Source: Sphingosinicella microcystinivorans (GTDB taxonomy: Bacteria; Pseudomonadota; Alphaproteobacteria; Sphingomonadales; Sphingomonadaceae). Taken from it: a DNA stretch of 64,000 nucleotides. Below, one piece after another: positions 33,792-48,738 of the stretch. Where the stretch lies: positions 1,069,501 to 1,133,500 of the forward strand of contig NZ_CP116005.1 of assembly GCF_027941835.1 (NCBI RefSeq), given 5' to 3'. The notes under the pieces are model-generated. The model was not told where the DNA came from. It saw only the letters and a list, made by a program, of their open reading frames with translations, and searched no databases. The position numbers were made by a program, and so were the translations under genes. The stretch's first letter is position 1; the number at the start of each line of letters is the position of its first letter.

Positions 33792-34874
33792 ATGGGCATC
33801 ACCATCGACATCGACACCGGCGGCACCTTCACCGACGGCTTCATCGTGCGGGACGGCGACGTGCGCACCGTGAAGGTGCCGACGACGCCGCACGACCTCA
33901 CCGCCTGCTTCCTCGACTGCATCAGCGCGGGCGCGGGCGCCTTCGAACGCGGCATCGAGGACTTCCTCGGCGAGACGGACATCATCCGCTTCTCGAACAC
34001 GATCGGCACCAACACGATCATCCAGCGCAACGGCTCGAAGATCGGCCTGATCGTGACGGCGGGATCGGAGGCGCTGGCGCCGACGCAGGGCGAGGACGGC
34101 AAGGCGCCGCTCGTCGCGCCGGACATGGTGATCGGCATCGCCGAAGCGGTCGGGGAAGACGGCGCGGTGACGGCATCCCCCGAGGCCGCCGCGATTTTGG
34201 GTGCGGCGCAGACGCTGATCGACCGCGGCGCGCGCGGCATCGTCGTCGCGCTGGCGAACTCCGACCTCAATCCCGCGAACGAGCGCCGCGTGCGCGCCGT
34301 CATCAAGGCCGAGTATCCGCGCGACTATCTCGGCTCGGTGCCGACCTTCCTCGCCTCCGACATCTCGGCGCGGCCGGGCACGCGCGAGCGCATCAACGCC
34401 GCCGTGCTCAACGCCTATATCCACGGCAAGCTCGCGCGCCTGCTCTACAAGGCGGGCGAGGAGCTGCGCCTGCGCGGCTATCGCGGCACGCTGTTCATTG
34501 GCCACAACAACGGCGCGGTCGCCCGCGTCGCCAAGACGCGCGCCATCAACACCTACAACAGCGGCCCCACCGGCGGCCTCTACGGCGCGCGCGCCATCGG
34601 CGCGCTCTACGGCGCGGATACGCTGATCGCCACCGACATGGGCGGCACCTCGTTCGACATCAGCTATGTTGAGAGCGGGCAGGCGAGCTATGCGCTCCAG
34701 CCCGAGGTCGAGGGCTTCGCCTGCAACCTGCCGATGATGGCGATCGACGCGCTCGGCGCGGGCGGCGGCTCGATCGCCGAGGTCGAGAACGGCGCACTCA
34801 GGGTCGGGCCGCAGTCGGCGGGCGCGCTTCCCGGCCCGGCCTGCTTCGGGCTCGGCGGCACCAAGGCACGGTGA
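33792..34874 (+). pseudogene. N-terminal half of a HyuA-type (acetophenone carboxylase-like) subunit, split by the island
   Basis: 360 residues then a TGA created at the island junction. The N-terminus ITIDIDTGGTFTDGF has the first phosphate-binding motif (DTGGTFTD) and the later TDMGGTSFD the second, as in ATP-dependent hydantoinase/oxoprolinase and acetone/acetophenone carboxylase subunits. The break falls right after LPGPACFGLGGTKA; the intact paralogue at 44504-46645 continues at this point with TVTDADLVLG, and that continuation is found 7.6 kb away at 42442. The ATP-binding part could fold, but the subunit is incomplete. Length of both halves together (~670 residues) fits a ~70-kDa carboxylase subunit. 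Confidence 0.92.
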
Positions 34875-34877
34875 CGG
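34869..34877. repeat. Left 9-bp direct repeat of the island (putative attL core)
   Basis: CGGTGACGG, identical to 42440-42448. It begins exactly where the HyuA-type frame is lost and contains the TGA that stops the N-terminal half. Confidence 0.75.
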
Positions 34878-34935
34878 GCTCGCATCGATGCCAGTAAACC
34901 ACAGCTTTTAAGCATTTTTTGATTATGTGATTTGC

Positions 34936-34965
34936 AAGGGGCCCCCAAAAGGGCCCCCAAATCCG
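34936..34965. repeat. GC-rich tandem repeat near left island end
   Basis: Two copies of GGGCCCCCAAA-type sequence in tandem (GGGGCCCCCAAAA then GGGCCCCCAAA) followed by TCCG. The right end has the same layout in the same orientation (42298-42325). They may be arm-type integrase sites. The 34878-35032 stretch is otherwise non-coding. Confidence 0.6.
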
Positions 34966-35032
34966 TGTGATGGAGCGCAAACCGGCCGCCAAATTTTCCA
35001 ATTGTAAGTACGAAGGACGGCCAGCCATCGCC

Positions 35033-36157
35033 TCAAGTTAGCCCGTCTCTCGGCAAACTCTGCATCGCTGCAAGCACCTGCGCGACGAGTGCCGGATCAA
35101 TCGACGCCGCCAGCCTGCCAGCCGCTCCTTTGCCTGCACCCATGCCCCGGATCAGTTCTGCCTGCCGGTGCGGTGCAACGGTGCCGTAACTGGTAAGAGT
35201 CGTCATTACGCGCTCATGCCCCAGATTCTGGGACCATGCCTTGAATTGCTCCGGTGTGGTGCAAACTTGCTCGCCAAGCTGCACCAGCGTATCGCGCAGC
35301 GAGTGCGGGTTGAAGTATGGCAGGTCAGCTGCTTCGAACGCCTTGCGGAATATCTCCCGAATCGGACCGGCTCCGTGCCAGCATTCGGCCCGGCGCAGCC
35401 CGATCGGGGCAAAGCCGCCATCCTCGCCAAGCCCTATTTGCGTCGGTGGAAACAACGGGTCTTCATCGCTCCAAAGCATGGTGTGGCGCAGGTACTGGCA
35501 CCAGTCTCGGACAATCTGGACAGCTTCGCCGCCAACTGGGAAAAACCAAGTCGCAAAGGTCTTGCTGGCCTTCGTCTGCACGTCGCGGGCGTCTTGATCC
35601 ACGCGGCCTTGCACCAGATCAACGTGCTTCAATCGGAACGACGCCAGCGCCCCGTCCCGTGCGCCAGTCAGAAGGGCAAAGGCCACCAGCGCCCGGTTGC
35701 GCAGTTCTATCGCGCTGCCTGCGGGCATGGCGGCGATGACATGATGGACTTGTTCCAGCGATGGGAACGCCTTGTGCCGCGCCGCCTTGGCGATCCGCAC
35801 GTCTTTTTCGGCCAGGTTGAAATAGTCGGCATCGGCATAAGACAGACGGGACTTGTAGCCGGGCTGTCCCGCCAGCCAGACGAAGAATGCGCGCAAAGCG
35901 GACAGGGTGGAATTGACCGTGGCCCGGCTCAAGGGCTTGCCGGTACGGACGGCCGGTTGCTTGTCCAGCCGGTGCTTGAAGGCCACTGCCTGCGCCCGGT
36001 GAAAGGTCTTGAAGTCCTTGTGCCCGTTCGCCTCTTCAAAGCGCGCCAGTGCCTTCGCAACGGCATCGATCGATCCTTCGTCGCGGCGCTGCGCTTCCTT
36101 CAGATAGTTGAAGTATTCCCGCTTGATTCGGGCGTTCGCGGCATTGTGTTTCGCCAT
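35033..36157 (-). CDS. Tyrosine recombinase/phage integrase (second integrase of the island)
   Basis: 374 residues. An N-terminal SAM-like core-binding domain (RATVNSTLSALRAFFVWLAGQ) precedes the catalytic domain. Catalytic residues are visible: Arg in LTGARDGALASFR, HSLRDT (H-x-x-R) and LGHERVMTTLTSYG with the His and nucleophilic Tyr. Six nucleotides downstream of the zinc/HTH gene. It is a different branch from the P4-type integrase at the other end; it may be an accessory recombinase or a trace of an older element. Located next to the left junction, as expected of an integrase gene. Confidence 0.92.
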   Translation of the reverse strand: MAKHNAANARIKREYFNYLKEAQRRDEGSIDAVAKALARFEEANGHKDFKTFHRAQAVAFKHRLDKQPAVRTGKPLSRATVNSTLSALRAFFVWLAGQPGYKSRLSYADADYFNLAEKDVRIAKAARHKAFPSLEQVHHVIAAMPAGSAIELRNRALVAFALLTGARDGALASFRLKHVDLVQGRVDQDARDVQTKASKTFATWFFPVGGEAVQIVRDWCQYLRHTMLWSDEDPLFPPTQIGLGEDGGFAPIGLRRAECWHGAGPIREIFRKAFEAADLPYFNPHSLRDTLVQLGEQVCTTPEQFKAWSQNLGHERVMTTLTSYGTVAPHRQAELIRGMGAGKGAAGRLAASIDPALVAQVLAAMQSLPRDGLT

Positions 36158-36162
36158 GTCTT

Positions 36163-36639
36163 TCAGTCCTTAAGGTTGTCACAATTCAGGGAAGGGGTGG
36201 TGCGCTCACATAGGCGTGGGCCTGCCTCCCTGATTTGGACGTCCAGATTGGGCATGATCGTGCCGATTGCGGCCAACCGGGTGCGCCGGTGCATCATGGT
36301 GCCGCAGGCCTCGCACATGGCGCTCAGGTTGCCCGTGGTGGCATTCTGGCGAGTGGCTTCGACCATCCCCATGGCAGGCGCGCGCGGCTGCCGACATTTG
36401 AAGCAGTATAAGGTTCCGGCCGGGCAGGGGCGTTTGCGACCGGCACTGCGCTTGGCAAGGAAGGTTCGAATGGTTGCCCCGTCAAACAGGGTGGGGCGGC
36501 CTTTGCTGACAGGCTCCAATCCCTTGGCCTGCCAGTGCCGGATGGTGTTCTTGTGGACGCCGCAACAGGTCGCCAGTTCCGCCGCACTGTAAACGCGGTG
36601 CAGCTTCACCCGTCGCGGATTGGCCCGGCGCTCGGGCAT
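36163..36639 (-). CDS. Helix-turn-helix protein with a C-terminal zinc ribbon
   Basis: 158 residues. The N-terminus has a MerR/excisionase-like HTH (YSAAELATCCGVHKNTIRHW, about residues 15-34), followed by a KGRPTLFDGATIRTFL wing. The second half has two CxxC knuckles, YCFKCRQP and CEACGTMM, which look like a zinc ribbon. It lies between the AlpA-like gene (5-bp gap) and the integrase (5-bp gap). This may be a recombination directionality factor or regulator for the adjacent integrase; no named family is recognised. Confidence 0.75.
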   Translation of the reverse strand: MPERRANPRRVKLHRVYSAAELATCCGVHKNTIRHWQAKGLEPVSKGRPTLFDGATIRTFLAKRSAGRKRPCPAGTLYCFKCRQPRAPAMGMVEATRQNATTGNLSAMCEACGTMMHRRTRLAAIGTIMPNLDVQIREAGPRLCERTTPSLNCDNLKD

Positions 36640-36644
36640 GGCGC

Positions 36645-36833
36645 TCAGGCCTGCACATCGATCAGCGCGCGAAGGCTGGCGGCAGGGATCAGTGTACGCT
36701 TGCCGATTTTGCGTACCTCCAGCCGACCTTCACCGATCAGCTGGTAAAGCCGGGTGCGCCCCAGCGAGGAAACGCGGCAAGCTTCGCTGATGGAATAGGC
36801 GAGCGGTTCAAGGGCGGTATTGGCGGTATTCAA
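36645..36833 (-). CDS. AlpA/excisionase-like DNA-binding protein
   Basis: 62 residues. A winged HTH of the excisionase class is visible: YSISEACRVSSLGRTRLYQL, then IGEGRLEVRKIGKRTLIPAA with the turn and wing and a short C-terminal helix. Such proteins bend DNA for excision or activate integrase transcription. It precedes the zinc/HTH gene and the second integrase, probably in one message. 36834-36933 upstream holds no gene. Confidence 0.85.
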   Translation of the reverse strand: MNTANTALEPLAYSISEACRVSSLGRTRLYQLIGEGRLEVRKIGKRTLIPAASLRALIDVQA

Positions 36834-36933
36834 GGGAAAGCCTCCGTTTAGTTGCGAACGGGGCTAACCTGCGCCGGATGCTGGCGGCCGGTCCGCCGGT
36901 TACCTGCAAAAACCGCCTAAAACCTGGTTTCTG

Positions 36934-37734
36934 TCATTCGCGTTCCCAAGCCTGAAAGGCATCGAAAATGTGCTTGGCGTGGATGCGGACAACGGAATCA
37001 GATGGCTGTAAATCCTGATCGCCAAGCCATGCTGCAAGCTCGCGGCCAACGTCTGCGATGGTTTGCGGTTTGAAATCGCCGCGATAGTAGCGGCCCGCTA
37101 TTTCCAGAGCCGCCAATTCCCAATTAGCAGCGGGCGGCCTCCCGCCCTTGTTGGTGTTGGCCGTGGGCCGGGCAGTTTCTGGCTCAGGCTCATCATTCCA
37201 GATGATGGGTTCCAAATCGTTCGGCCATACCTCGATGTCCCACGCGGAAAACCACTCTTCCATATAGTCGTTGTCAAAGGGCGCTATCGTGGTGGTGGCG
37301 ACGGCATAGCTGAACCGACATGCGCTATATTCCCAGTTGTGAGCAAGACAGTCGTTCAAGCCTAGCTCTGGGAGCTGTAGCATCCGCTGCTTAATTCTTG
37401 CGCTGACAGGTTCCCTAATCGTTTCCTCAATGGATCGAGCCAGATGCTGCCAGTGCCGGGCTTTGATTACCTCTCCTTCCGCATACGATCGGAAGTGGTC
37501 TAGGTCCTGAAATTTTTGCCAGCGATAATTGCCTCGTGCCAACAAATCCCCTTGGCTAAGCAGGGTCAGAACTTCAGCTTGAGGCCGTCTGATGCCTTCC
37601 ATAGCAAGCCGGTTAACGACAGTATTTACCGCCAAACCGGAACAAAATAATACGCCATCCGGGTTGCAGTACTGCCACCCCCATTCTCGCATGATGTCCA
37701 GTACAGCAGTTGCCGACGCTGGGCGTTCATCCAT
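36934..37734 (-). CDS. Island protein of unknown function downstream of the RM gene
   Basis: 266 residues from ATG 37734, chosen because TGAGGTCAACGGG precedes it and because an upstream start would overlap the RM gene. No known domain is recognised. The N-terminal 130 residues look like a helical/winged fold (TAVLDIMREWGWQYCNPDGV); the middle is acidic with many aromatic residues (MEEWFSAWDIEVWPNDLEPI); a linker KGGRPPAANWELAALE leads to a C-terminal helical part, GRPP-type sequences being common in small phage and plasmid proteins. Only 10 nt lie between it and the RM gene, so it may be a control, specificity or second defence component. Confidence 0.7.
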   Translation of the reverse strand: MDERPASATAVLDIMREWGWQYCNPDGVLFCSGLAVNTVVNRLAMEGIRRPQAEVLTLLSQGDLLARGNYRWQKFQDLDHFRSYAEGEVIKARHWQHLARSIEETIREPVSARIKQRMLQLPELGLNDCLAHNWEYSACRFSYAVATTTIAPFDNDYMEEWFSAWDIEVWPNDLEPIIWNDEPEPETARPTANTNKGGRPPAANWELAALEIAGRYYRGDFKPQTIADVGRELAAWLGDQDLQPSDSVVRIHAKHIFDAFQAWERE

Positions 37735-37744
37735 CCCGTTGACC

Positions 37745-40700
37745 TCAATCAAGTGGGAGGTCGATTTCCCGCATAATGCGGTCGGTTTCGACCAGGATTT
37801 TGATGATGCGCTGATAGTGGCGGATGTCGTCATAGGTTAGGGCGCGGCCCTTGCGGTCTTTCAGCCACTTTTGCGCGGGCTGATAACCGCCGATGTGGAA
37901 GTCCCATGCAATCGCGGGCACGCCGTCAAAATACTGGTCTGCATTGATCCAGACTTGCCCGCTCTCATGGCGCGGCTTTTCCACCACGCTGTCGCCGTCG
38001 CCATGGAAGGGGTAGGGCGTTTCGCCGATGGCTGCATCCTCCATCAAGTGCAGGCGGCGCAAGGCTTCGCCCCTTTCGCTGATCGCGCGGAAGCTTTCGG
38101 GGCTGGCGGGGAAGGGGATACGGGGGAAGTCGATTTTCAAGAATTCGGCATGGCGTGCGCGATAGGCCGGGCTATGCAGCACGCCATAGATGTAATCGAA
38201 CACCTTCACCTCATCGGGGCGGGCATCACCAGTTGCCTTGCGGAAAGCATCGGTGCCATCTGGTGCGGTCAGCGGGTTGGTGAGGCCAGCCGCTTTGCGG
38301 ATTTGGAAATAAAGCTTGGGATCGAAATTGACGCGGATGCTTTGATCCAGCGTGGTTTCCTCTGGATAAAGGTAGAGGGGAGCCAGATAGTTCACTTCCT
38401 TGATGCTCAACGTGTGATGCGTAATTGGCAGATCGTGCACGAGGAAGTCGGCGAAATCTCTCCCTCCCTCGATTGTACGTGTGAATGAAACGCCGAGGTT
38501 CGGGCCAGCATGGAAATTCTGCATAAATTCCACGCGCCCCCAATCGACCATATCAGCACGCGACAAGATCGCGCGCGTATCGAATGGTCGGTAAGCAATC
38601 GGCTGTATATCATTGCGCCAATCAGCCGACTGGAGCGCCTTGCGCGCGGCAGGCAATTTCCATCCTCTTGAATCGCCCGGTGGATATTTGCCATCAGCCT
38701 TGCTGCCAAAAAAACGCCCACGAATTTCTGCATCTGAGGCGGCGGGATCGGCGAACGTCGCTATGCGGTCGATTAGTTCCTGCGTATTCAGCGCGATGAC
38801 CAGTCCGTCGCGCGCTGTAACAATGCCCGCAACATTGGCAGGCATCAAGTCCGCCACCGACAAACCCTTTGCGTATTCGGCTTCCAGATCATAATCGCGC
38901 AGCACGAAAGGATGTTGCGGGGCTTTGTGGGGCAACGGCGTGGCGGCAAGGCTGGCCGTAGTGCCATCCCAAAGTTGGGCGTACTTGCCATCGCGGGTGC
39001 CCCATAGTTCGCCGTGACGCACCTCCGCCAGCGGTTTGGGTGCCTTTCCACTGCGGCGATGTTTCACGGCAATGATAATCGCCACGCCCTGCATGATGTC
39101 AAACACGTTCTTGTCGGGCGTCCCGTCGGGGCTGACTTCTTTCTTGTTGGAATTACCGTGTAGGTCCAGAACATGGATGCGGTCGAACGTCTGCATCAAA
39201 TGCCAGCGCATCCCCCGAAAGGTGGGGTTTTCGAGATAACCGTGGTTGGTGATGAAGCCTAAAACGCCTTCGCCATTCTGCTCGATCATATGTTCGGCAA
39301 GACGCAGAAACTTCACATAGTCATCTTGCAGCCAGTGCTTGCGTTCCCCGAAGTGGACGCCATCGACATATTTGTAATCCTCGATCTTGGCGGTGATCCA
39401 GTTGCCGTTGTTCTGGCTGATGCCCGAATACGGCGGGTTGCCGATCACGCACATGATAGGGGTTTGTCGTTTGATGTCGCTGGCGGCCTTGGCTTCATTG
39501 GCGATGGCGCGGGACAGGCCGAACAGCGTCTGCTCCACGCGCTCGCCTTCCTCAAGACTGTTGGTCAGGTAAACCCCGAGGCGCGGCGGGGTAGGAGACG
39601 GCTTGTAGCCCAACCGGGTCAGAATCATGTCCAGCTTCATGTGGCACATGGCATAGCTGGCCATTAGCAGCTCGAACCCGTGCAGGCGTGGGATCAGGTC
39701 GCGCTCGATATAGGCCGATAGCTGGCCGGGGGCGATGCCCTTGATCCGTTCGGAAACCAGCTTCACGACCTCCGCCAGAAAGGTGCCGGTGCCAGTGGCG
39801 GGGTCCAGAATCTGGACGCGGTGGACTTTCTTCTTGATGTGGGCGGGCTTGCCGGTCTTAGGATCGTTCTGGCCGGTGTCCCAATCGATGGTGATTTTGC
39901 TGGTATCGGCCAAGCCGTCGGACAGGCCAAACTCGGTTTTCAGCACTTCGTCCACCGCGCGGACGATGAAATTTACCACAGGTTCGGGCGTATACCACAC
40001 GCCCCGCGCCTTGCGCTTGGCCGGGTTATATTCGGCCAGAAAGTCCTCATAGAAATGCAGGAACGGGTCTTGCCGCGCGGTGATCTTGCCGAAATTGCGC
40101 AACACCCGTTCCATATCGGTGGCCTGAAACACGTTGCACAGCTCATCGATCACGCGGCGCAGGCGTTCGTCCAGGTTGGGACCGGCAATGTAGATGAACA
40201 GTTCGCGCAGGAAAGGGTTGGTCTTGGGCAGCAGGTCCAGCGCCTCCCCCCGAGTGAACGTGTTTGGCGTTTCGTCATGCAGCCGCGCGGCGAACAGGCC
40301 ATAGGCGATGGTTTCAGCATAGATGTCGGCAAATTCCTCCACGGTGATGTCGTGGATCAGGCTGGCCTTGAACGCCTCATACTGCCCGATCAGGTCGGTT
40401 GCAGTGCCGGTTGCATCGCGGGCTTTCATGTCGGCCACCAGCGCGCGGCCCATGATGTCCTTTATGATCGCCGCCTTGCCCGCCATCATCGCCGCCAGCT
40501 TCGCCGATGACGTGACGCTGAGCGGGGTGACGTGCGCGAAGTCACGCAGCCGGTTTTCCAGTAGCGAGAAGTTGTCGGATCGCGCCGGAAGTGTGGGGAT
40601 CAGGTCGGCGATAGTGATGAAGTCAATCACCTCGCCGTCGCGCAGAAATTCGAAGTCTAGTCCGTTAGTGTATATCAGATTGGGCAGCCCCTTACGGTAG

Positions 40701-40975
40701 CGGTCCTTTTGGCCTTTGCTATAATCGTTTGCTGCAAATTTGCGAACGTCCCTGCCGATGTCCTTCGCCTCGCACCAGCCAATTGCAACATCGCCGCGCT
40801 GAAAGACGAAATCGGGGGCGCCAACGTCGGTGATGTGCTTCGGCTCATTGATGACAGTCAGTGCTGTATCGATGGAAGAAAACAGCTTGGCCAAGGCGGG
40901 GCGGAAGCTGTGTTCGGTTGTCTGGGCACTCGCATGAAGCGCACGGATTTCATTGAGATAACCTTGAACATCCAT
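37745..40975 (-). CDS. Single-chain restriction-modification enzyme (Type IIG-like: nuclease + N6-adenine methyltransferase)
   Basis: 1076 residues from ATG 40975; GTG 40996 would also start the frame but coincides with the purine-rich GGGAGGGG that serves ATG 40975. An N-terminal PD-(D/E)xK nuclease is visible: P54-D55 and E69-A70-K71 in GAPDF and GWCEAKD. After a helical linker comes the methyltransferase with motif I DPATGTGTFL (391-400) and motif IV NPPYS (513-517), typical of gamma-type N6-adenine methyltransferases. The rest probably includes the target-recognition domain. No helicase motifs lie between nuclease and methyltransferase, which argues against Type ISP. It cuts and protects DNA at an unknown sequence. 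Confidence 0.88.
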   Translation of the reverse strand: MDVQGYLNEIRALHASAQTTEHSFRPALAKLFSSIDTALTVINEPKHITDVGAPDFVFQRGDVAIGWCEAKDIGRDVRKFAANDYSKGQKDRYRKGLPNLIYTNGLDFEFLRDGEVIDFITIADLIPTLPARSDNFSLLENRLRDFAHVTPLSVTSSAKLAAMMAGKAAIIKDIMGRALVADMKARDATGTATDLIGQYEAFKASLIHDITVEEFADIYAETIAYGLFAARLHDETPNTFTRGEALDLLPKTNPFLRELFIYIAGPNLDERLRRVIDELCNVFQATDMERVLRNFGKITARQDPFLHFYEDFLAEYNPAKRKARGVWYTPEPVVNFIVRAVDEVLKTEFGLSDGLADTSKITIDWDTGQNDPKTGKPAHIKKKVHRVQILDPATGTGTFLAEVVKLVSERIKGIAPGQLSAYIERDLIPRLHGFELLMASYAMCHMKLDMILTRLGYKPSPTPPRLGVYLTNSLEEGERVEQTLFGLSRAIANEAKAASDIKRQTPIMCVIGNPPYSGISQNNGNWITAKIEDYKYVDGVHFGERKHWLQDDYVKFLRLAEHMIEQNGEGVLGFITNHGYLENPTFRGMRWHLMQTFDRIHVLDLHGNSNKKEVSPDGTPDKNVFDIMQGVAIIIAVKHRRSGKAPKPLAEVRHGELWGTRDGKYAQLWDGTTASLAATPLPHKAPQHPFVLRDYDLEAEYAKGLSVADLMPANVAGIVTARDGLVIALNTQELIDRIATFADPAASDAEIRGRFFGSKADGKYPPGDSRGWKLPAARKALQSADWRNDIQPIAYRPFDTRAILSRADMVDWGRVEFMQNFHAGPNLGVSFTRTIEGGRDFADFLVHDLPITHHTLSIKEVNYLAPLYLYPEETTLDQSIRVNFDPKLYFQIRKAAGLTNPLTAPDGTDAFRKATGDARPDEVKVFDYIYGVLHSPAYRARHAEFLKIDFPRIPFPASPESFRAISERGEALRRLHLMEDAAIGETPYPFHGDGDSVVEKPRHESGQVWINADQYFDGVPAIAWDFHIGGYQPAQKWLKDRKGRALTYDDIRHYQRIIKILVETDRIMREIDLPLD

Positions 40976-41042
40976 TCGCGTAGCAGCCCCTCCCACGTTC
41001 GATTGAGAGGCTTAACGCTAGTTCCGGGCCTCGCCAAGTCAG

Positions 41043-42266
41043 TCAGACCGCCTCCCGGTCTGGAAAGGGCACGATGTCCGCTCCTTTCCGTAACTGGTCG
41101 AGATGATCCGACCACCATTGGGCCATTTCCACGCGCTCCTTCCAGTGCGCGCCCCGGTGATAGGCTGCACGCACACGGTCCTCATCGCCATGGGCTAGGG
41201 CGCGTTCAATAGCGTCAGGGCTCCACTTGCCGGACTCGTTCAGCAGCGTGCTCGCCATCGCGCGGAATCCATGGGCCGTCATTTCGTCGCCGGAGAAGCC
41301 AAGCCGCCTAAGGCCCGCATTTATGGTGTTCTCGCTCATAGGTCGGGTGCGGGTGCGCATGGACGGAAGAACAAAGCCGGAAGGGCCGGTAATAGCGTGG
41401 AGCTGGCGAAACAGTTCCACCGATTGACGCGACAACGGAACATGGTGCGGCTTGCGCATTTTCATCTTGCCTGCCGGGATGATCCATAGCCCGGCGTCCA
41501 GATCAATCTCGCTCCATTCCGCGTGGCGCAGTTCGCCGGGGCGGACAAAAACGTGAGGGGAAACCTGCATCGCCAGCTTGGTCACAACCTGCCCCTCATA
41601 GCCGTCCATAGCGCGCAACAGCTCCCCAGCCCGCTTTGGCTCAACAATTGCGCCGTAGTGCTTGGGCTGGGGGGCCGTAAGCGCGCCGCGCAAATCGCGA
41701 CTCGGGTCCGATGCCAGCCGCGCTGTCGCTACAGCATAGCGGAACACGCGGCCCGACAGTTGCAGCACCCGGCGCGCGGTCTCGTAATTACCCTTCGCTT
41801 CGATCCGGCGAAGTGTGGCCAGAAGGTCTGGCGCGCGGATTTCGGCTATGGGCAGGCGGGCGATGACGGGTCCCATGCGGGAAATGTAGTATTCGCTCTT
41901 GTCGGCGGTGGAGGTGGCCAAACCCTCGCGCCTACGCTTGTCGAGAAATTCCTTGGCAATTTCGCCGAAGGTGTTCGCGGCAGACACCCTAGCGCGGTGC
42001 TTGGCCTGTTGTTTCTCCCGCGACGGGTCTTTTCCTGCCGCGATCAGTTCGCGCGCCTCATCGCGCCGCTTGCGGGCTTCGACCAAGCTGATTTCAGGAT
42101 AAGTGCCGATGGCCAGCTTTTTCTCGCGGCCGTCCACCCGGAATTTTTGCCGCCAAAGCTTCCCGCCCGCCGGGGTGACAAGCAGGTAAAGCCCACTGCT
42201 ATCGGATAGCTTGTATGCCTTCTCGCGCGCCTTCGCGTTCCTGATCGCTGTATCGGTAAGAGCCAT
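41043..42266 (-). CDS. int: P4-type tyrosine integrase
   Basis: 407 residues. The N-terminal DUF4102-like arm-binding domain (LTDTAIRNAKAREKAYKLSD, GGKLWRQKFRVDGREKKLAI) is typical of P4-family island integrases. The catalytic residues are Arg in FVRPGELRHAEW, HGFRAM (H-x-x-R) and the Tyr in RAAYHRGAHWKERVEMAQ. It lies near the right junction, 68 nt upstream of the RM gene. It is probably the integrase that inserted the island. The sequence upstream, 42267-42439, has the repeat at 42298 and a 7-bp inverted repeat at 42401-42420. Confidence 0.94.
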   Translation of the reverse strand: MALTDTAIRNAKAREKAYKLSDSSGLYLLVTPAGGKLWRQKFRVDGREKKLAIGTYPEISLVEARKRRDEARELIAAGKDPSREKQQAKHRARVSAANTFGEIAKEFLDKRRREGLATSTADKSEYYISRMGPVIARLPIAEIRAPDLLATLRRIEAKGNYETARRVLQLSGRVFRYAVATARLASDPSRDLRGALTAPQPKHYGAIVEPKRAGELLRAMDGYEGQVVTKLAMQVSPHVFVRPGELRHAEWSEIDLDAGLWIIPAGKMKMRKPHHVPLSRQSVELFRQLHAITGPSGFVLPSMRTRTRPMSENTINAGLRRLGFSGDEMTAHGFRAMASTLLNESGKWSPDAIERALAHGDEDRVRAAYHRGAHWKERVEMAQWWSDHLDQLRKGADIVPFPDREAV

Positions 42267-42297
42267 ACTGGGGGCCTTTCAAGAGACCCCGGATTGG

Positions 42298-42325
42298 AAA
42301 GGCCCCAAGAAGGCCCCCAAGCCGG
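42298..42325. repeat. GC-rich tandem repeat near right island end
   Basis: AAAGGCCCCAAGAAGGCCCCCAAG-type tandem repeat followed by CCGG, matching in layout and orientation the repeat at 34936-34965. Located just upstream of the P4 integrase start. Confidence 0.6.
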
Positions 42326-42439
42326 GGTGGCTGCCAGCGAACGTGATCGAACGCCTGCGGCCTGATTGGCCCTAAATATCTGCGTTTTCTGGGGTTTGTC
42401 CAGACGTTCGCGGACGTCTGCGATCAAGAAAATGGTGGG

Positions 42440-42448
42440 CGGTGACGG
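42440..42448. repeat. Right 9-bp direct repeat of the island (putative attR core)
   Basis: CGGTGACGG, identical to 34869-34877. The C-terminal half of the HyuA-type gene resumes inside it (GTG ACG GAC at 42442). Confidence 0.75.
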
Positions 42449-43377
42449 ACGCGAACCTCGTGCTCGGCATCCTCGATCCGGCGCGCTTCCTCGGCGGCGG
42501 CATGACGCTCGACCCCGACAAGGCGCGCGCCGCCATCGACACCGCCGTCGCGCAGCCGCTCGGGATCAGCATCGAGGACGCCGCGCTCGCCATCCGCCGC
42601 AATGTCGAGGACGCGATGGGGCGGGCGGTCGGCGCGGTCGCCGAGCGCCTCGGGCGCCCGGACGGGCTTCCCGTCATCGCCTACGGCGGCGCGGGCGCGA
42701 TCCACGCCGCCGACATCGCCGCGAACGCCGGCATCGGCCGCGTCGTCATCACGCCCTTCTCCGCCGTGTCGTCGGCGTTCGGCTCGTCGCTGATGGACGT
42801 GGGCCACATCTACTACCGCCGCGCGGACATCCTCGTCGAAAGCGCGGGCGACCTGCTGTCGGCCGCGCCGCTCGTCGCCGACATGGCGACGGAAGCCGCG
42901 CGCGACATGCGCGGCGAGGGCTTCGATCCGGCGGATGCGGAAGCGCGCCTGCAACTGTTCTGGACCGGCGCGGGCGGCGAGCCCGAAATCCTCGTGGCCG
43001 CCGAGACCGCAGCAGTCTCGGACGCCGATGCCGCATCCGCGGCCCTCATCGCGGCACGCGAAGCGCTCGGCACAGCGGGACCGCTGCGCCTTGCCAGCAT
43101 CGCCTACAACGCGTCCGCGCGCGTGCCGCATTTCGAATGGCGGCAGGGGCAGACGGCGGCGGCCGATCTCGCGGCGGCGCGTCTCGCCGACCGGCAGGTG
43201 TGGTTCGGCGGGCCGGAGCGCGTGGCGACGCCGGTTTACGACCGCGCGCGTATGGGTCCCGGCCACACGCTCTCCGGCCCCGTGATCGTCGAATCCAGCC
43301 AGACGACGATCCTGGTGCCCGAAGGCTGGCGCCTCGCCATCGACGCTTACGACAACGCGCTTCTCGAACGGGAATAA
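42442..43377 (+). pseudogene. C-terminal half of the HyuA-type subunit split by the island
   Basis: The frame starts VTDANLVLGILDPARFLGG, which is aligned with TVTDADLVLGLYNAENYLGG of the intact paralogue (44504-46645) and continues the half that ends at 34874. It runs to a normal stop (LLERE) with the conserved YGGAGAIHAADIA and SGPVIVESSQTTILVPEGW. A GTG is present at 42442 but no good ribosome-binding site; separate translation as a fragment is conceivable but unproved. The downstream genes keep normal spacing (3 nt to the next), so the rest of the operon is undisturbed apart from polarity. Confidence 0.92.
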
Positions 43378-43380
43378 GCG

Positions 43381-43719
43381 ATGAGCAAAGTCCGCATCAC
43401 CGAGTATCTCGACATCGACCTGCCCTCGGAAACGTGGCGCTGCAACCGCTGCGGCCACGACCTCGGCTCCGCGCACGGCAATTACAAGGAAGGCTGCCTC
43501 GTCGCGGAGCGGCCGCTGGACGAGGTGCATCCGCCGCTCGTCGCGGAGGGCAATTACAGCTTCACGCCGGACAGCCGATATTGCCGTCTCGTCGAGTTCT
43601 ACTGCCCCGGCTGCGCGACGATGCTGGAGAACGAATATCTGCCGCCGGGCCACCCGATCACGCACGAGATCGAGCTCGACATCGCCGCGCTGAAGCGCCG
43701 CCACGGCGCGGCGGCATGA
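43381..43719 (+). CDS. Small zinc-binding carboxylase subunit (acetone/acetophenone carboxylase gamma-like)
   Basis: 112 residues. Two cysteine pairs, WRCNRCGHDL (about residues 20-29) and FYCPGCATML (about 80), can bind a metal; this spacing and the LPSETWRC start are typical of the small gamma-type subunits of acetone and acetophenone carboxylases. It probably helps carboxylation of the activated ketone. It overlaps the next gene by 4 nt. Size fits the ~15-kDa subunit of acetophenone carboxylase. Confidence 0.85.
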   Translation: MSKVRITEYLDIDLPSETWRCNRCGHDLGSAHGNYKEGCLVAERPLDEVHPPLVAEGNYSFTPDSRYCRLVEFYCPGCATMLENEYLPPGHPITHEIELDIAALKRRHGAAA

Positions 43720-44489
43720 CGAACCGGCTCGCCTCCGTCCTCGGCGGCGACGCGGGCGCCGCGGTGCTGCCGCGCCTGTCGGCGGCGGCCGCGCCGGTGT
43801 GCGGCCAGCCGTGGAGCGCCATCGCGGCCGACGCCGGGCAGATCGTGCAGGCCGCGAAGCGCATCGCCGCGCTGTTCGGCAGCGACGCCATCGTCATCGA
43901 GATCGACGCGGCGGCGAGCGAGACGACGGTCGAGGCGATCCGGCGTCTGACAGCCGAGGGAGGACGCCCGGTCGTCCCCGTGCTGCCCGGCCCGGTGACG
44001 CTCGCCGCGGCAAGCGACGCCGACACGGCCAAGGCGGTACTTACCGCAATCGGCGAGGCGATCGGCGAGGCGCGCCCGGCGCTGCTGCTTTTCGACGAGA
44101 GCGCGGCACCCGCCGACGATCTTTCCGGCATGGCCGCGCGCAAGCTGTTCAACACGCTGCGCAACGTCGCATCCTATTTCGACGTGCCGCTCGGCATCGT
44201 CATGACGATCGCGGACGCGGACGCCGCCGACGCGGCCGTGCGCCTGAAACCCGATGCGGTGATCGCGGCGGGCGCGGCGGACGCCGATCTGCTGGACCGC
44301 ATCGCCGCCGAAGGCCTCGTCACCGGGATCGCCGTGGCGGTGGACGACGCGGCGGCGGCGGCGAACGCCGCAGCGCTCGCGGCGACGCGGCCGCTCATCA
44401 TCACGACGACCGGCGGCGGCCCCGATCCGCTGCCGGTGGAAGCCATGCACGCATTCATGGGCGCGTTCGGCAGCGCCCGCAAATCCTGA
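43716..44489 (+). CDS. Carboxylase-locus protein of unknown function
   Basis: 257 residues, coupled by ATGA to the zinc subunit upstream. Rich in Ala and Asp; motifs PVVPVLPGPVTLAAASDAD and LNTLRNVASYFDVPLG-like FNTLRNVASYFDVPLGIVMT suggest a TIM-barrel reminiscent of uroporphyrinogen decarboxylase/cobalamin methyltransferases (PGPxTL is a typical phrase there), but the similarity is weak. In the acetophenone carboxylase system a fifth, loosely bound protein of ~34 kDa is known; this product has the right position to be an equivalent, though it is smaller. Function unassigned. Confidence 0.75.
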   Translation: MTNRLASVLGGDAGAAVLPRLSAAAAPVCGQPWSAIAADAGQIVQAAKRIAALFGSDAIVIEIDAAASETTVEAIRRLTAEGGRPVVPVLPGPVTLAAASDADTAKAVLTAIGEAIGEARPALLLFDESAAPADDLSGMAARKLFNTLRNVASYFDVPLGIVMTIADADAADAAVRLKPDAVIAAGAADADLLDRIAAEGLVTGIAVAVDDAAAAANAAALAATRPLIITTTGGGPDPLPVEAMHAFMGAFGSARKS

Positions 44490-44503
44490 GGACAAACGCT
44501 GCG

Positions 44504-46645
44504 ATGAGTTACACGGTAGGCATCGACGTCGGCGGCACCTTCACCGACTTCTACTGCGCCCACGAGGACGGCGGCTTCCACACGGCGAAAACGCCGACGA
44601 CGCACTACGACCTCTCGGTCGGCTTCATGCGCGGCATGGGGCTGCTCGCGAAGGGGCTGAAGCTGAAGCTGCCGGAGTTCCTGAGCGGCCTTTCGAGCGT
44701 GCGCTATTCGACGACCGTGGGCACCAACGCCCTCATCGAGCGCACCGGTCCCAAGCTCGGGCTCATCACCACCGCGGGCTTCGAGGACACGATCTTCATC
44801 GGGCGCGGCCGCAGCTGGGCGGACGGGCTCGGCTGGCAGCAAGGCCGCGACCTCGCGCGCATCGAGAAACCAGCGCCGCTGATCGACCCCGAGATGGTCG
44901 TCGGCGTGCGCGAGCGCATCGACTACGCGGGCAAGATCGTCGCGCCGCTGTCGCGCGAGGAAGTTCTCGAAAAACTCCAGACGCTCGTCGACCGCGGCGC
45001 GCAGGGCTTCGTCGTGTCGCTGCTCTGGTCGTTCGTGAACCCGGAGCACGAGCAGTTCATCAAGCAGGTGATCGAGGAGGAATATCCCGAGGACTATCTC
45101 GGCTCGATGCCGGTGATCCTGTCGTCGGAGATCTCGCCCAAGGCGGGTGAGTACACGCGCACGATGACCGCGGTCGTCAACGCCTACATCCACGGGCTGA
45201 TGGCCGACGAGCTGAACAAGCTCGGCAACGAGCTGCGCGACGGCGGCTACAAGAAACCGCTGACGCTGGTTCACAACACCGGCGGCACCAAGAAGGCCTC
45301 GCGCACGCGCGCCGTGCTGACGCACAACGCCGGGCCGGTCGCGGGCCTGCACGGCGCCGCCGCGCTCGGCGGGCTGTCGGCGGACGGCAATATCGTGTTC
45401 ACCGACATGGGCGGCACCTCGTTCGACATCGGCCTCATCGAGGGCGGCGCGATCAAGGCGCACGACTTCATCCCGGTGATCGACCGCTGGCGCACCAACA
45501 TCCCGGCGATCGAGGTGAAGTCGATCGGCGCGGGCGGCGGCTCCATCGCGTGGATCAACACGACGCTCGGCGACACGCTGGAGGTCGGGCCGCAGTCGGC
45601 GGGGTCGATGCCGGGGCCGGCCTGCTACGACAAGGGCGGCAAGGAGCCGACCGTGACGGACGCCGACCTCGTGCTCGGCCTCTACAATGCCGAGAATTAT
45701 CTCGGCGGCGAGATGCTGCTCGACGTCGATCTCGCGAAACAGGCGATCGGCGAGAGGATCGCGAAGCCGCTCGGCATCCCGGTGGAGGAAGCCGCGTGGC
45801 GCATCCGCCGCATGATCGACGCGCGCATGGGGCAGGAGGTGTTCAACGAGGTGGCGCTGAAGGGCCACGACCCGCGCACCTTCGTGCTCTACGCCTGCGG
45901 CGGCGCGGGCGGCGCGCACGCGGTGGGCTTCGCGCCGTTCATCGGCGTCGGCAAGATCGTCGTGCCGCTGCAATCGTCGGTGTTCGGCGCGTTCGGCGCC
46001 TCGACGATGGCGATCAAGGAGGTGTGGGAACGCTCGCGCTCGCTGAAGCTCTTCAACTGGGCGGAGCAGGCCTATCTCTCCGATCTCGCGCCGTTCAACG
46101 ATCTCGTCTCGGAACTCGTCGATCTCGCGACGCGCGACCTGAAGCTCGAAGGCTTCGACGAGCGCGACATGGCGTTCCGGCTCGAACTCGATATGCGCTA
46201 CGGCAGCCAGTACAACATGACGCGCGTCGCCGCGCCGGCGCTGCGGCTGGAGAGCGCGGACGACGTGAGGGCGCTGTGCGACGCGTTCACCGCGCGCTAC
46301 GCTGAGGTCTATTCGCCCGAGGCGACCTTCCCGGCGGGCGGCATCAACGTCGAGAGCTTCTTCCTCACCGCATCGGTCGCGCAGGACCCGTTCGCGCTGT
46401 CCGCCGAAACGCTCGCCGCGCCGGAGCCCGATGCGAATGCGCAGACCGAGACGCGCCCCGTCTACTGGGACCCGGCGGACGGCTTCACGGACACGCCGAT
46501 CTACGACGCGCGGCGGCTGAAACCGGGCAACCGGATCAGCGGCCCTGCCGTCATCGAAAGCCCCGACACGACCCATGTGGTCGCGCCGGGCTGGACCTTC
46601 CACATCGACGCCTGGCGGAACGGCGTCCTCGAACGCAGCGCCTGA
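44504..46645 (+). CDS. HyuA-type subunit of an ATP-dependent ketone carboxylase/hydantoinase-like enzyme
   Basis: 713 residues, complete. Phosphate motifs DVGGTFTDFY (residues 8-17) and FTDMGGTSFDIGLIE; the conserved PQSAGSMPGPACYDKGGKEP and YACGGAGGAHAVGFA. The family includes HyuA, 5-oxoprolinase, AcxA/ApcC-type carboxylase subunits that phosphorylate the enol substrate or bicarbonate. It is the second HyuA-type gene of the locus, and the size (~77 kDa) fits the larger subunit of acetophenone carboxylase. HyuB-type partner follows 14 nt later. Confidence 0.92.
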   Translation: MSYTVGIDVGGTFTDFYCAHEDGGFHTAKTPTTHYDLSVGFMRGMGLLAKGLKLKLPEFLSGLSSVRYSTTVGTNALIERTGPKLGLITTAGFEDTIFIGRGRSWADGLGWQQGRDLARIEKPAPLIDPEMVVGVRERIDYAGKIVAPLSREEVLEKLQTLVDRGAQGFVVSLLWSFVNPEHEQFIKQVIEEEYPEDYLGSMPVILSSEISPKAGEYTRTMTAVVNAYIHGLMADELNKLGNELRDGGYKKPLTLVHNTGGTKKASRTRAVLTHNAGPVAGLHGAAALGGLSADGNIVFTDMGGTSFDIGLIEGGAIKAHDFIPVIDRWRTNIPAIEVKSIGAGGGSIAWINTTLGDTLEVGPQSAGSMPGPACYDKGGKEPTVTDADLVLGLYNAENYLGGEMLLDVDLAKQAIGERIAKPLGIPVEEAAWRIRRMIDARMGQEVFNEVALKGHDPRTFVLYACGGAGGAHAVGFAPFIGVGKIVVPLQSSVFGAFGASTMAIKEVWERSRSLKLFNWAEQAYLSDLAPFNDLVSELVDLATRDLKLEGFDERDMAFRLELDMRYGSQYNMTRVAAPALRLESADDVRALCDAFTARYAEVYSPEATFPAGGINVESFFLTASVAQDPFALSAETLAAPEPDANAQTETRPVYWDPADGFTDTPIYDARRLKPGNRISGPAVIESPDTTHVVAPGWTFHIDAWRNGVLERSA

Positions 46646-46659
46646 GGGAGACACGCGAC

Positions 46660-48738
46660 ATGACCGGCATTGCCTACGCCCGCGACCACGAGGTGGTCCA
46701 GCGCCTGCGCCCCGAACCGATGACCGAGGCCGAAGCCGCCGCGCAGGCGCGCATCGACCCGGTGGAGTTCGACATCTTCAAGCACAAGATGCACATGATC
46801 GCGCTGGAGGGCAAAGAGACGACGATGAAGCTCGGCGCCTCCACCGCGATGCGCTGGGGCGACGTCGCCTTCGGCATCTTCACGCGGCAGGGCGACCTCA
46901 GCGTCTGCGCGACCGGCATCTATCACCACGCTGTGCTCGGCCAGCTCCCGCTGAAATACGTGGTGAAGCACTGGGTGGACGAGCCCTCGGTGGGCGTGAA
47001 GGACGGCGACAGCTTCTTCTACAACGATCCCTTCTACGCGGGCGTGCACAACGCCGACATGGGGCTCGCCGTGCCCGTGTTCCACAAGGACGAACTGATG
47101 TGCTTCATCGCTGCCGCCGTGCACACCGGCGAGGCGGGCGGCACCGAGCCCGGCGGCACCTGCAACACCGCGAAGACCAAGTACGACGAGGGGCTGCTGG
47201 TGCCGCCGATCAAGATCGGCGAGAACTACCAGCTGCGCGAGGACATCCTCAACATGCTGGCCGCAATGACGCGCGACCCGCGCACGATGATCCTCGACAT
47301 CAAGGCGCGCCTCGCCGCCGCGCGCATCGCGCAGCGCCGCGTGCTCGAAGTGATCGAGGAGAAGGGACCGGAGTTCTTCATCGGCGGCCTGCGCCGCATC
47401 CTGACGCAGACGGGCGAGGCCGCGAAGCGCCGCGTCGCCGAGCTCAACGACGGCATCTACCGGCAGCCGCGTTTCCTCGACACCGTGGGCACCGAATCCG
47501 GCCTCACCAAGATCAACCTCACCATGATCAAGCAGGGCGACCGCATCATCATGGATTTCGAGAACACCTCGCCGCTCGTGGAAGGCCGCCCGATCAACAG
47601 CTTCTTCCAGGGCATCCTCGGGCTTTCGTGCGTCTATTACTGCGGCTGGCTGTTCCACGACCTTCCCGCCAACAACGGCCTTCTGGAAGCCATCGACTGG
47701 CGCTTCCCGGACGACGCGATGGTGAACGCCAAGGGCGACGCCTCCACCTCGCTCGCGCCGCTGGTGCAGACCTGCTTCACGCAGGGCATCTTCCTGACCG
47801 GCGCGCGCATGACCTACAGCTACGACGCCTCGCGCGCGGTGGCGGCGTGGTTCTCCGGCTTCGCGATCCCGACCTTCGGCGGCATCAACCAGTTCGGCGA
47901 GGGCATCGCCGACATCACGCCCGAGATCAACGCCACGGGCTGCGGCGCGCGGCCGGACATGGACGGCGTGGAGGCGGCGGGCGCGTTCTTCGCGACGATG
48001 AGCGACTGTTCGGACGTCGAGGCGACCGAAAGCGACCGGCCGTTCCTCTACACGTTCCGCAACCTGTTCAACAACAGCTACGGCCACGGCAAGCAGCGCG
48101 GCGGCTGCGGCGTCGGCTTCGGCCTCATCGTCCACGACACCAACCGCTTCATGCTCGGCTCGATGGGCGGCGGCTCGCGCTTCCCGACGACGCTCGGCCT
48201 GTTCGGCGGCTACGCCGTGCCGCCGGTGTTCGTGCAGACCGTGCACGGCAGCAACATCAAGACGCTGATGGCGGACGGCGCGACGCCGCTGCCGCACGAT
48301 CTTGCCGAGGTGTTCGCGGCGGACAATCCCGAGACGGGCACCAAGGAAACGCTCGACGTCAACATGGTGGTGCGGCCGTTCAATGACGGCGACACCTATT
48401 ACGTCGCGGTCGGCGGCGGCGGCGGCTACGGTGACCCGCTGGAGCGCGATCCGGCGAGCGTGCTCGCCGACCTTCGCAACGGCCGCGTGTCGCACTGGGC
48501 GGCGGAGCACGTCTACAGGATCGCCTACGATACCGGGACGCTGCGCTTCGATGCCGAGGCCACCGACGCGCTGCGGAAGGCGGCGCGCGCCGAACGGCTC
48601 GCCCGGGCGAAGCCTTACGGCGAATTCGTGAAGGACTGGTCGAAGCTGTCGCCGCCCGAGGATGCGCTGCGCTACTACGGGAGCTGGCCGAACCCGCGCG
48701 ACGGGATGCAGCCGGCCGTGCAGCTCCGCGCCGCCTGA
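46660..48738 (+). CDS. HyuB-type subunit of a ketone carboxylase/hydantoinase-like enzyme
   Basis: 692 residues. The hydantoinase B/oxoprolinase fold is shown by DPVEFDIFKHKMHMIALEG, GDSFFYNDPFYAGVHNADMG, the metal-site-like HTGEAGGTEPGG and C-terminal VGGGGGYGDPLERDP. In carboxylases of this type the HyuB-like subunit receives the phosphorylated intermediate and performs C-C bond formation. It lies between the HyuA-type subunit (14 nt) and the CoA ligase (7 nt), so it is in the same operon. Confidence 0.92.
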   Translation: MTGIAYARDHEVVQRLRPEPMTEAEAAAQARIDPVEFDIFKHKMHMIALEGKETTMKLGASTAMRWGDVAFGIFTRQGDLSVCATGIYHHAVLGQLPLKYVVKHWVDEPSVGVKDGDSFFYNDPFYAGVHNADMGLAVPVFHKDELMCFIAAAVHTGEAGGTEPGGTCNTAKTKYDEGLLVPPIKIGENYQLREDILNMLAAMTRDPRTMILDIKARLAAARIAQRRVLEVIEEKGPEFFIGGLRRILTQTGEAAKRRVAELNDGIYRQPRFLDTVGTESGLTKINLTMIKQGDRIIMDFENTSPLVEGRPINSFFQGILGLSCVYYCGWLFHDLPANNGLLEAIDWRFPDDAMVNAKGDASTSLAPLVQTCFTQGIFLTGARMTYSYDASRAVAAWFSGFAIPTFGGINQFGEGIADITPEINATGCGARPDMDGVEAAGAFFATMSDCSDVEATESDRPFLYTFRNLFNNSYGHGKQRGGCGVGFGLIVHDTNRFMLGSMGGGSRFPTTLGLFGGYAVPPVFVQTVHGSNIKTLMADGATPLPHDLAEVFAADNPETGTKETLDVNMVVRPFNDGDTYYVAVGGGGGYGDPLERDPASVLADLRNGRVSHWAAEHVYRIAYDTGTLRFDAEATDALRKAARAERLARAKPYGEFVKDWSKLSPPEDALRYYGSWPNPRDGMQPAVQLRAA

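Follow-up and report, generated by a model that had tools for sequence, protein, structure and literature searches.

The stretch analysed here, referred to as the window, comprises 64,000 nucleotides (nt) of Sphingosinicella microcystinivorans contig NZ_CP116005.1. Its source genome, G000, consists of one contig of 4.53 Mb; other genomes are given G handles and single loci L handles. Within the window, a 7.57-kb island cuts one acetophenone-carboxylase-like hyuA/apcA gene into two parts, and the ends of this island carry sequence of a tRNA-Val gene. The features on which the following argument builds are:

33792-34874, plus strand: 5' part of the split apcA/hyuA-like gene, an open reading frame (ORF) of 360 amino acids (aa) with frameshifted last codons (Pfam and NCBIfam profiles, orthologue in L008)
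34867-34868, no strand: scar, one G missing relative to all four intact alleles, nt 71 in tRNA numbering (allele alignment)
34869-34882, minus strand: distal attachment (att) end, 14 bp of tRNA-Val sequence, CGAGCCCGTCACCG on the reverse strand (comparison with tRNA-Val)
41043-42266, minus strand: P4-type tyrosine integrase gene (int), with Arm-DNA-bind_3, Phage_int_M and Phage_integrase matches, of a tRNA-Val clade
42433-42448, minus strand: proximal att end, 16 bp of the tRNA-Val 3' end, CCGTCACCGCCCACCA on the reverse strand, 166 bp from the int start
42440-42457, minus strand: hyuA stretch mimicking the tRNA-Val T-arm at 16 of 18 bases, GGTTCGCGTCCGTCACCG, with the 9-bp core included
42442-43377, plus strand: 3' part of the split apcA/hyuA-like gene, 311 aa (ORF list and profile matches)

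A first-pass annotation of this DNA had proposed that the island splits a HyuA-type carboxylase gene, and this is borne out. The two parts match consecutive stretches of the Hydantoinase_A profile (1-162, then 165-287) and of the ApcA profile (2-351, then 353-657). The comparison with related strains that it had suggested for the joined flanks returned one uninterrupted gene in G004, which belongs to the same species, and in G001, G003 and G005; all four read across the junction in a single frame, and two separate complete ORFs were found in none of them. The intact allele of G001 has 671 aa, which equals the window halves of 360 + 311 aa; an intact 671-aa orthologue is seen in stretch L008. 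No close copy was found in G002, the fifth other genome of the genus, where the best match reaches 39%. The GC content per 500-base window is 55-63% in the island and 64-74% in its flanks (scan of 28000-50000). A 9-mer, CGGTGACGG, was located by a sequence search of the window at 34869-34877 and 42440-42448, with a spacing of 7,571 bp between the copies. As it occurs five times on the plus strand of the window, the 9-mer alone is weak proof of an insertion, and it is the empty sites in the relatives that provide this proof.

The island had been described as bounded by this 9-bp repeat. The repeat is indeed present at both ends, but both ends keep longer pieces of the tRNA-Val 3' end (CCGTCACCGCCCACCA proximally and CGAGCCCGTCACCG distally), so the 9-mer was rejected as the complete att. 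Between the hyuA site GGTTCGCGTCCGTCACCG and the tRNA-Val T-arm GGTTCGAGCCCGTCACCG, two of 18 bases differ, and because of this match hyuA can be regarded as a secondary attachment site. The att of the window island equals the tRNA-Val 3' end, and its distance to int (166 bp) is in keeping with the 166-186 bp found in the 16 tRNA-Val rows among the integrase relatives, while the island itself is located in hyuA and not at tRNA-Val.

The relatives of the integrase point to the same target. A same-strand tRNA gene lies 135-214 bp upstream of int in 77 of 80 relatives, and in an earlier set of nearest relatives one was present at 28 of 29 loci. The three exceptions adjoin a tRNA-Val 3' fragment (L093), a tRNA-Gly 3' fragment (L137) and an N-gapped tRNA gene (L158, a locus also listed as L054). 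Each of the 80 relatives therefore has a tRNA gene next to it, be it whole, N-gapped or a 3' fragment, which rules out hyuA as a regular target of the family and agrees with the earlier remark that insertion into a protein gene is unusual for a P4-type integrase. The seven closest relatives (81-92% identity) all adjoin tRNA-Val(TAC), and in a tree that left out L132 and L143, which have a stop in int, the window integrase falls within a clade of 19 whose other members stand at tRNA-Val (17) or a tRNA-Val fragment (one), with a support of 100/94. One relative, G022, carries a 7.5-kb island at tRNA-Val with a 20-bp repeat; its int is 86% and its AlpA-like protein 90% identical to those of the window island.

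Some integrase relatives deserve mention in their own right. In L093 and L137 the integrases follow tRNA 3' fragments that lack the corresponding 5' half, which suggests that these islands inserted into the relic of an earlier island. A related integrase (55%) is encoded in the same genome as the window island, at G000:C1:2858267-2859460 in L072 (G000:C1:2848000-2862000); no tRNA gene was found within this 14-kb stretch, and its target may be another unusual site.

The tRNA-Val(TAC) gene of the host, at G000:C1:3172018-3172093, differs at two bases from G001, G002, G003 and G005, with the T-stem pair kept by compensatory change, and one of the two changes turns the core CCGTCACCG into CTGTCACCG. 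The exact tRNA-Val sequence is found in all four congeners with a match (G001, G002, G003 and G005), and no tRNA-Val match was found in G004. The exact base combination of G000 was seen only there by eye in a family listing with matches in 96 of 119 genomes, and the 20 kb surrounding the gene (C1:3172018) hold no relative of the island proteins. The change in the T-stem could represent an escape from islands or drift. It is likely, as far as one case can tell, that the altered core prompted the off-target choice of hyuA. In the absence of its tRNA site, ICEBs1 integrates at secondary sites (PMC3715440), and has in common with the window case that a tRNA-specific element enters other genes, some of which resemble the tRNA site. 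Unlike the situation described for ICEBs1, the window case is natural and not engineered, its primary site exists in altered form, and the distal junction has lost a base. SGI1 likewise is described as a mobilizable island at a second chromosomal site (PMC2297512), with trmE and not a tRNA gene as its usual target (PMC8409611).

The two junctions of the island differ. The proximal junction is exact. At the distal one, the window reads AAGGCACGGTGACGG against AAGGCGACGGTGACGG in each of the four intact alleles, a G being absent between 34867 and 34868. This base unambiguously corresponds to nt 71, so that the distal copy carries a -1 indel in the acceptor stem. Computationally joined via the 9-mer, the flanks form a sequence of 2,015 nt in which codon 361 is a stop, and because of the missing G a precise excision would produce a frameshifted gene. 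The first-pass annotation had noticed that a crossover in the 9-bp repeat leaves the frame one base off; this is real and reflects the 1-bp deletion, and its proposal of an imperfect core is supported as well. The carboxylase is predicted to be inactive, and the position and recurrence of the deletion suggest an origin in the integration event.

This recurrence was assessed with the displaced distal tRNA fragments of related islands at 94 loci (73 + 21 in two sets), the same for both searches; these are loci and not independent genomes, since at least three genomes occur in both sets (G288/L086, G081/L087, G018/L121). A first search with an exact 12-mer rule returned fragments at 10 of the 73 loci (controls: one reversed and one opposite-strand match) and, without controls, at 13 of the 21. 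Seven of these 23 fragments were intact and 16 were broken, all at nt 69-72, with losses of three nt in five, one nt in four and two nt in one, a gain of one nt in one, and five without an assigned size. As the 12-mer rule favours breaks close to nt 70, the search was repeated over all 94 loci as a gapped alignment, in which 39 loci scored above 27 (controls: 0/94 reversed, 1/94 opposite-strand). By a hand count of rows, 32 of the 39 fragments are broken in the same few acceptor-stem bases, through losses of one nt (21), three nt (5, with L082 and G081 sized from the 12-mer search) or two nt (1), a gain of one nt (1) or larger or complex breaks (4; G105, L097, L107 and L154). L138, which was counted in the 12-mer search, lies under the threshold of the gapped search, and L151, an ungapped candidate, was left out of the counts. 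In the tRNA-Val class, five of six distal fragments are broken (L082, L083, L085, G288 and G081) and the one of G022 is intact. Because of base runs, the -1 losses are given as ranges, and they can be placed at nt 68-70 (tRNA-Gly), 70-72 (tRNA-Val) and 70-71 (tRNA-Thr); the loss in hyuA fits the latter two. The 3-nt loss in G260 is regarded as real, since four of its six congener loci keep the same tRNA-Gly intact 2-421 bp upstream of the matching flank; the other two have no tRNA. For the broken tRNA-Val of G081, 61 genomes were searched for an empty site; seven others match the flank, and no tRNA was present at the five loci examined.

Deletions from a fixed acceptor-stem place in the displaced tRNA fragment are shared with some phage-inducible chromosomal islands (PICIs), as reported in PMC10111431, which cites Williams 2002. 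The damage described there concerns PICIs and tRNA genes, whereas the present cases comprise an int/AlpA clade of sphingomonads and a protein gene. A limited search of the open-access literature found no report of distal-copy damage in a protein gene, and such damage is apparently new both for int/AlpA islands of sphingomonads and for a protein gene. By eye, the sequence beyond some distal fragments (L069/L070 in G288, L189/L190 in G105) looks like the arms of another element, so that islands may stand in tandem there.

We think it probable that the locus represents a stray tRNA-Val island at a secondary site, whose integration left a scar at the distal end and knocked out the carboxylase gene one-way. 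In that course of events, a tRNA-Val-specific int/AlpA element with type IIG restriction cargo would have arrived in a host whose altered tRNA-Val(TAC) core disfavoured the usual site. It would then have entered the apcA/hyuA-like gene, with its T-arm mimic and 9-bp core CCGTCACCG, as a secondary site. The proximal junction would have formed exactly and the distal one lost a base where the integrase relatives lose 1-3 nt, and the gene would not be recovered by precise excision, which leaves the frameshift. Somewhat more speculatively, and with the odds slightly against it, the whole integrase family may integrate asymmetrically: the proximal junction would be exact, the distal one would usually lose (in rare cases gain) 1-3 nt at a set distance from the crossover, and the displaced target would be crippled irrespective of the gene. 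Under this view, the hyuA insertion hints that the damage depends on recombination geometry rather than on the tRNA as such.

Several points weigh against this reading. With two mismatches, the T-arm 18-mer matches seven places in the genome, including hyuA, the distal end of the island and the host tRNA-Val, so that hyuA is among the best decoys and not unique; with up to three mismatches there are 45 places, compared to 13 for the reversed control. A distal end was found for 39 of the 94 loci and not for 55, larger losses would escape the searches because these require T-arm matches, and seven of the 39 fragments are intact. The loss at nt 71 lies one base beyond the tRNA-Gly range. With one insertion known, from one genome, the link between the insertion and the altered tRNA-Val is a single coincidence. 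The location in a protein gene is unusual for the integrase family of the window, though not rare among islands generally, since protein-gene islands make up 43.4% of assignments in PMC12424338. The missing G could also stem from a sequencing error or from a deletion of earlier or later date.

If asymmetric damage is real, loss of the island would mean loss of the target's function, and the island would be hard to shed. The locus further offers a natural experiment in att choice, with a core that is exact in four congeners and altered where the island went elsewhere. Damage of the displaced copy has been little studied, and the locus carries it beyond PICIs, into a family of sphingomonad islands and into a protein gene; how some integrases inflict it on the distal copy, and why, becomes testable with short DNA substrates.

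Besides int, the island encodes five proteins, and all six genes lie on the minus strand, opposite to the carboxylase operon:

35033-36157, minus strand: second tyrosine recombinase, Xer-like (Pfam, NCBIfam and PHROG searches)
36163-36639, minus strand: HTH_17/MerR-like DNA-binding ORF (Pfam matches under the cut-offs, PHROG search)
36645-36833, minus strand: AlpA/excisionase-like helix-turn-helix (HTH) protein (under the NCBIfam cut-off; relative in the G022 island at 90% identity)
36934-37734, minus strand: 266-aa ORF, neighbour of the restriction enzyme gene (no match in Pfam, searched with a longer ORF, and PHROG)
37745-40996, minus strand: single-chain type IIG-like restriction-modification enzyme, defence cargo (Type_ISP_C 1.2e-83, PADLOC REase_MTase_IIG 5.7e-262)

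The AlpA-like protein scores 27.5 with the NCBIfam model "excise", against a cut-off of 28.8. The small HTH protein also has a weak PHROG match to a terminase small subunit (8.5e-07), which we read as the common HTH. By eye, the catalytic motifs of both recombinases appear complete. The best plasmid relative of the Xer-like recombinase, at 47%, is found in Ruegeria conchae. No transfer or virion genes were recognised among the six genes in Pfam, NCBIfam, PADLOC and PHROG searches, and with int, AlpA and defence cargo the element corresponds to an int/AlpA defence island of the I55 kind. Such islands, with the same layout, are known from Pseudomonas (PMC12595487) and lie at tmRNA or tRNA genes; they have in common with the window island a terminal tyrosine integrase, AlpA toward the other end, restriction-modification among the defence cargo, flanking direct repeats and the lack of recognised transfer genes. 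The window island differs from those described there in its sphingomonad clade, its size of 7.6 kb, its tRNA-Val specificity and its location in a protein gene.

Among the alternatives, the one that survives best, although we consider it unlikely, is that hyuA was frameshifted beforehand or lost the base later by ordinary mutation, with the position of the deletion being coincidental. After the insertion there would be no selection for the frame, the insertion is known here from one genome, and nt 71 is off the exact place of the tRNA-Gly losses; yet both gene halves are otherwise open, and the loss falls within the three nt affected in the tRNA-Val class. It is very improbable that the split gene still functions as two polypeptides, for although both parts are open and the second starts with GTG, the interruption falls within the Hydantoinase_A domain and the island's six genes face the opposite way to the operon.

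Hardly better is the case for a reversible switch, in which excision restores apcA and turns ketone carboxylation on, as the first-pass annotation had suggested; under such a switch, the restored AAGGCGACGG would be expected in reads. The island does carry an integrase, an AlpA-like protein and direct repeats, and regulated disruption of genes by islands has been described (PMC10111431). However, the integrase clade targets tRNA-Val, the insertion is absent from the four relatives that hold the gene, and the predicted product of precise excision does not regain an intact gene, so that the switch fails at the stop at codon 361 unless the missing base is an error. An island inside a catabolic gene is thus not necessarily a switch, which should be kept in mind in annotation. 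Finally, we give very little credence to the view that the Xer-like recombinase, at the distal end of the island and seemingly complete, made the insertion with hyuA-type genes as its normal target, as the island ends are tRNA-Val sequence with the int-to-att spacing of that class. A search of 59 genomes at E 1e-30 retrieved no match to this recombinase in any of the other 58, and no relative of it was found in the tRNA-Val island of G022, which further speaks against it as the insertion agent.

The interrupted gene is followed by further carboxylase-like genes:

43381-48738, plus strand: rest of the apc-like operon, with an Acetone_carb_G subunit, an unnamed ORF, an ApcC-like and an ApcD-like subunit (profile matches)

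The matches to ApcA, ApcC and ApcD lie far under the NCBIfam equivalog cut-offs, short of what an assignment to Apc by these models takes. By eye, an acyl-CoA-ligase-like ORF follows the ApcC-like and ApcD-like subunits in the operon.

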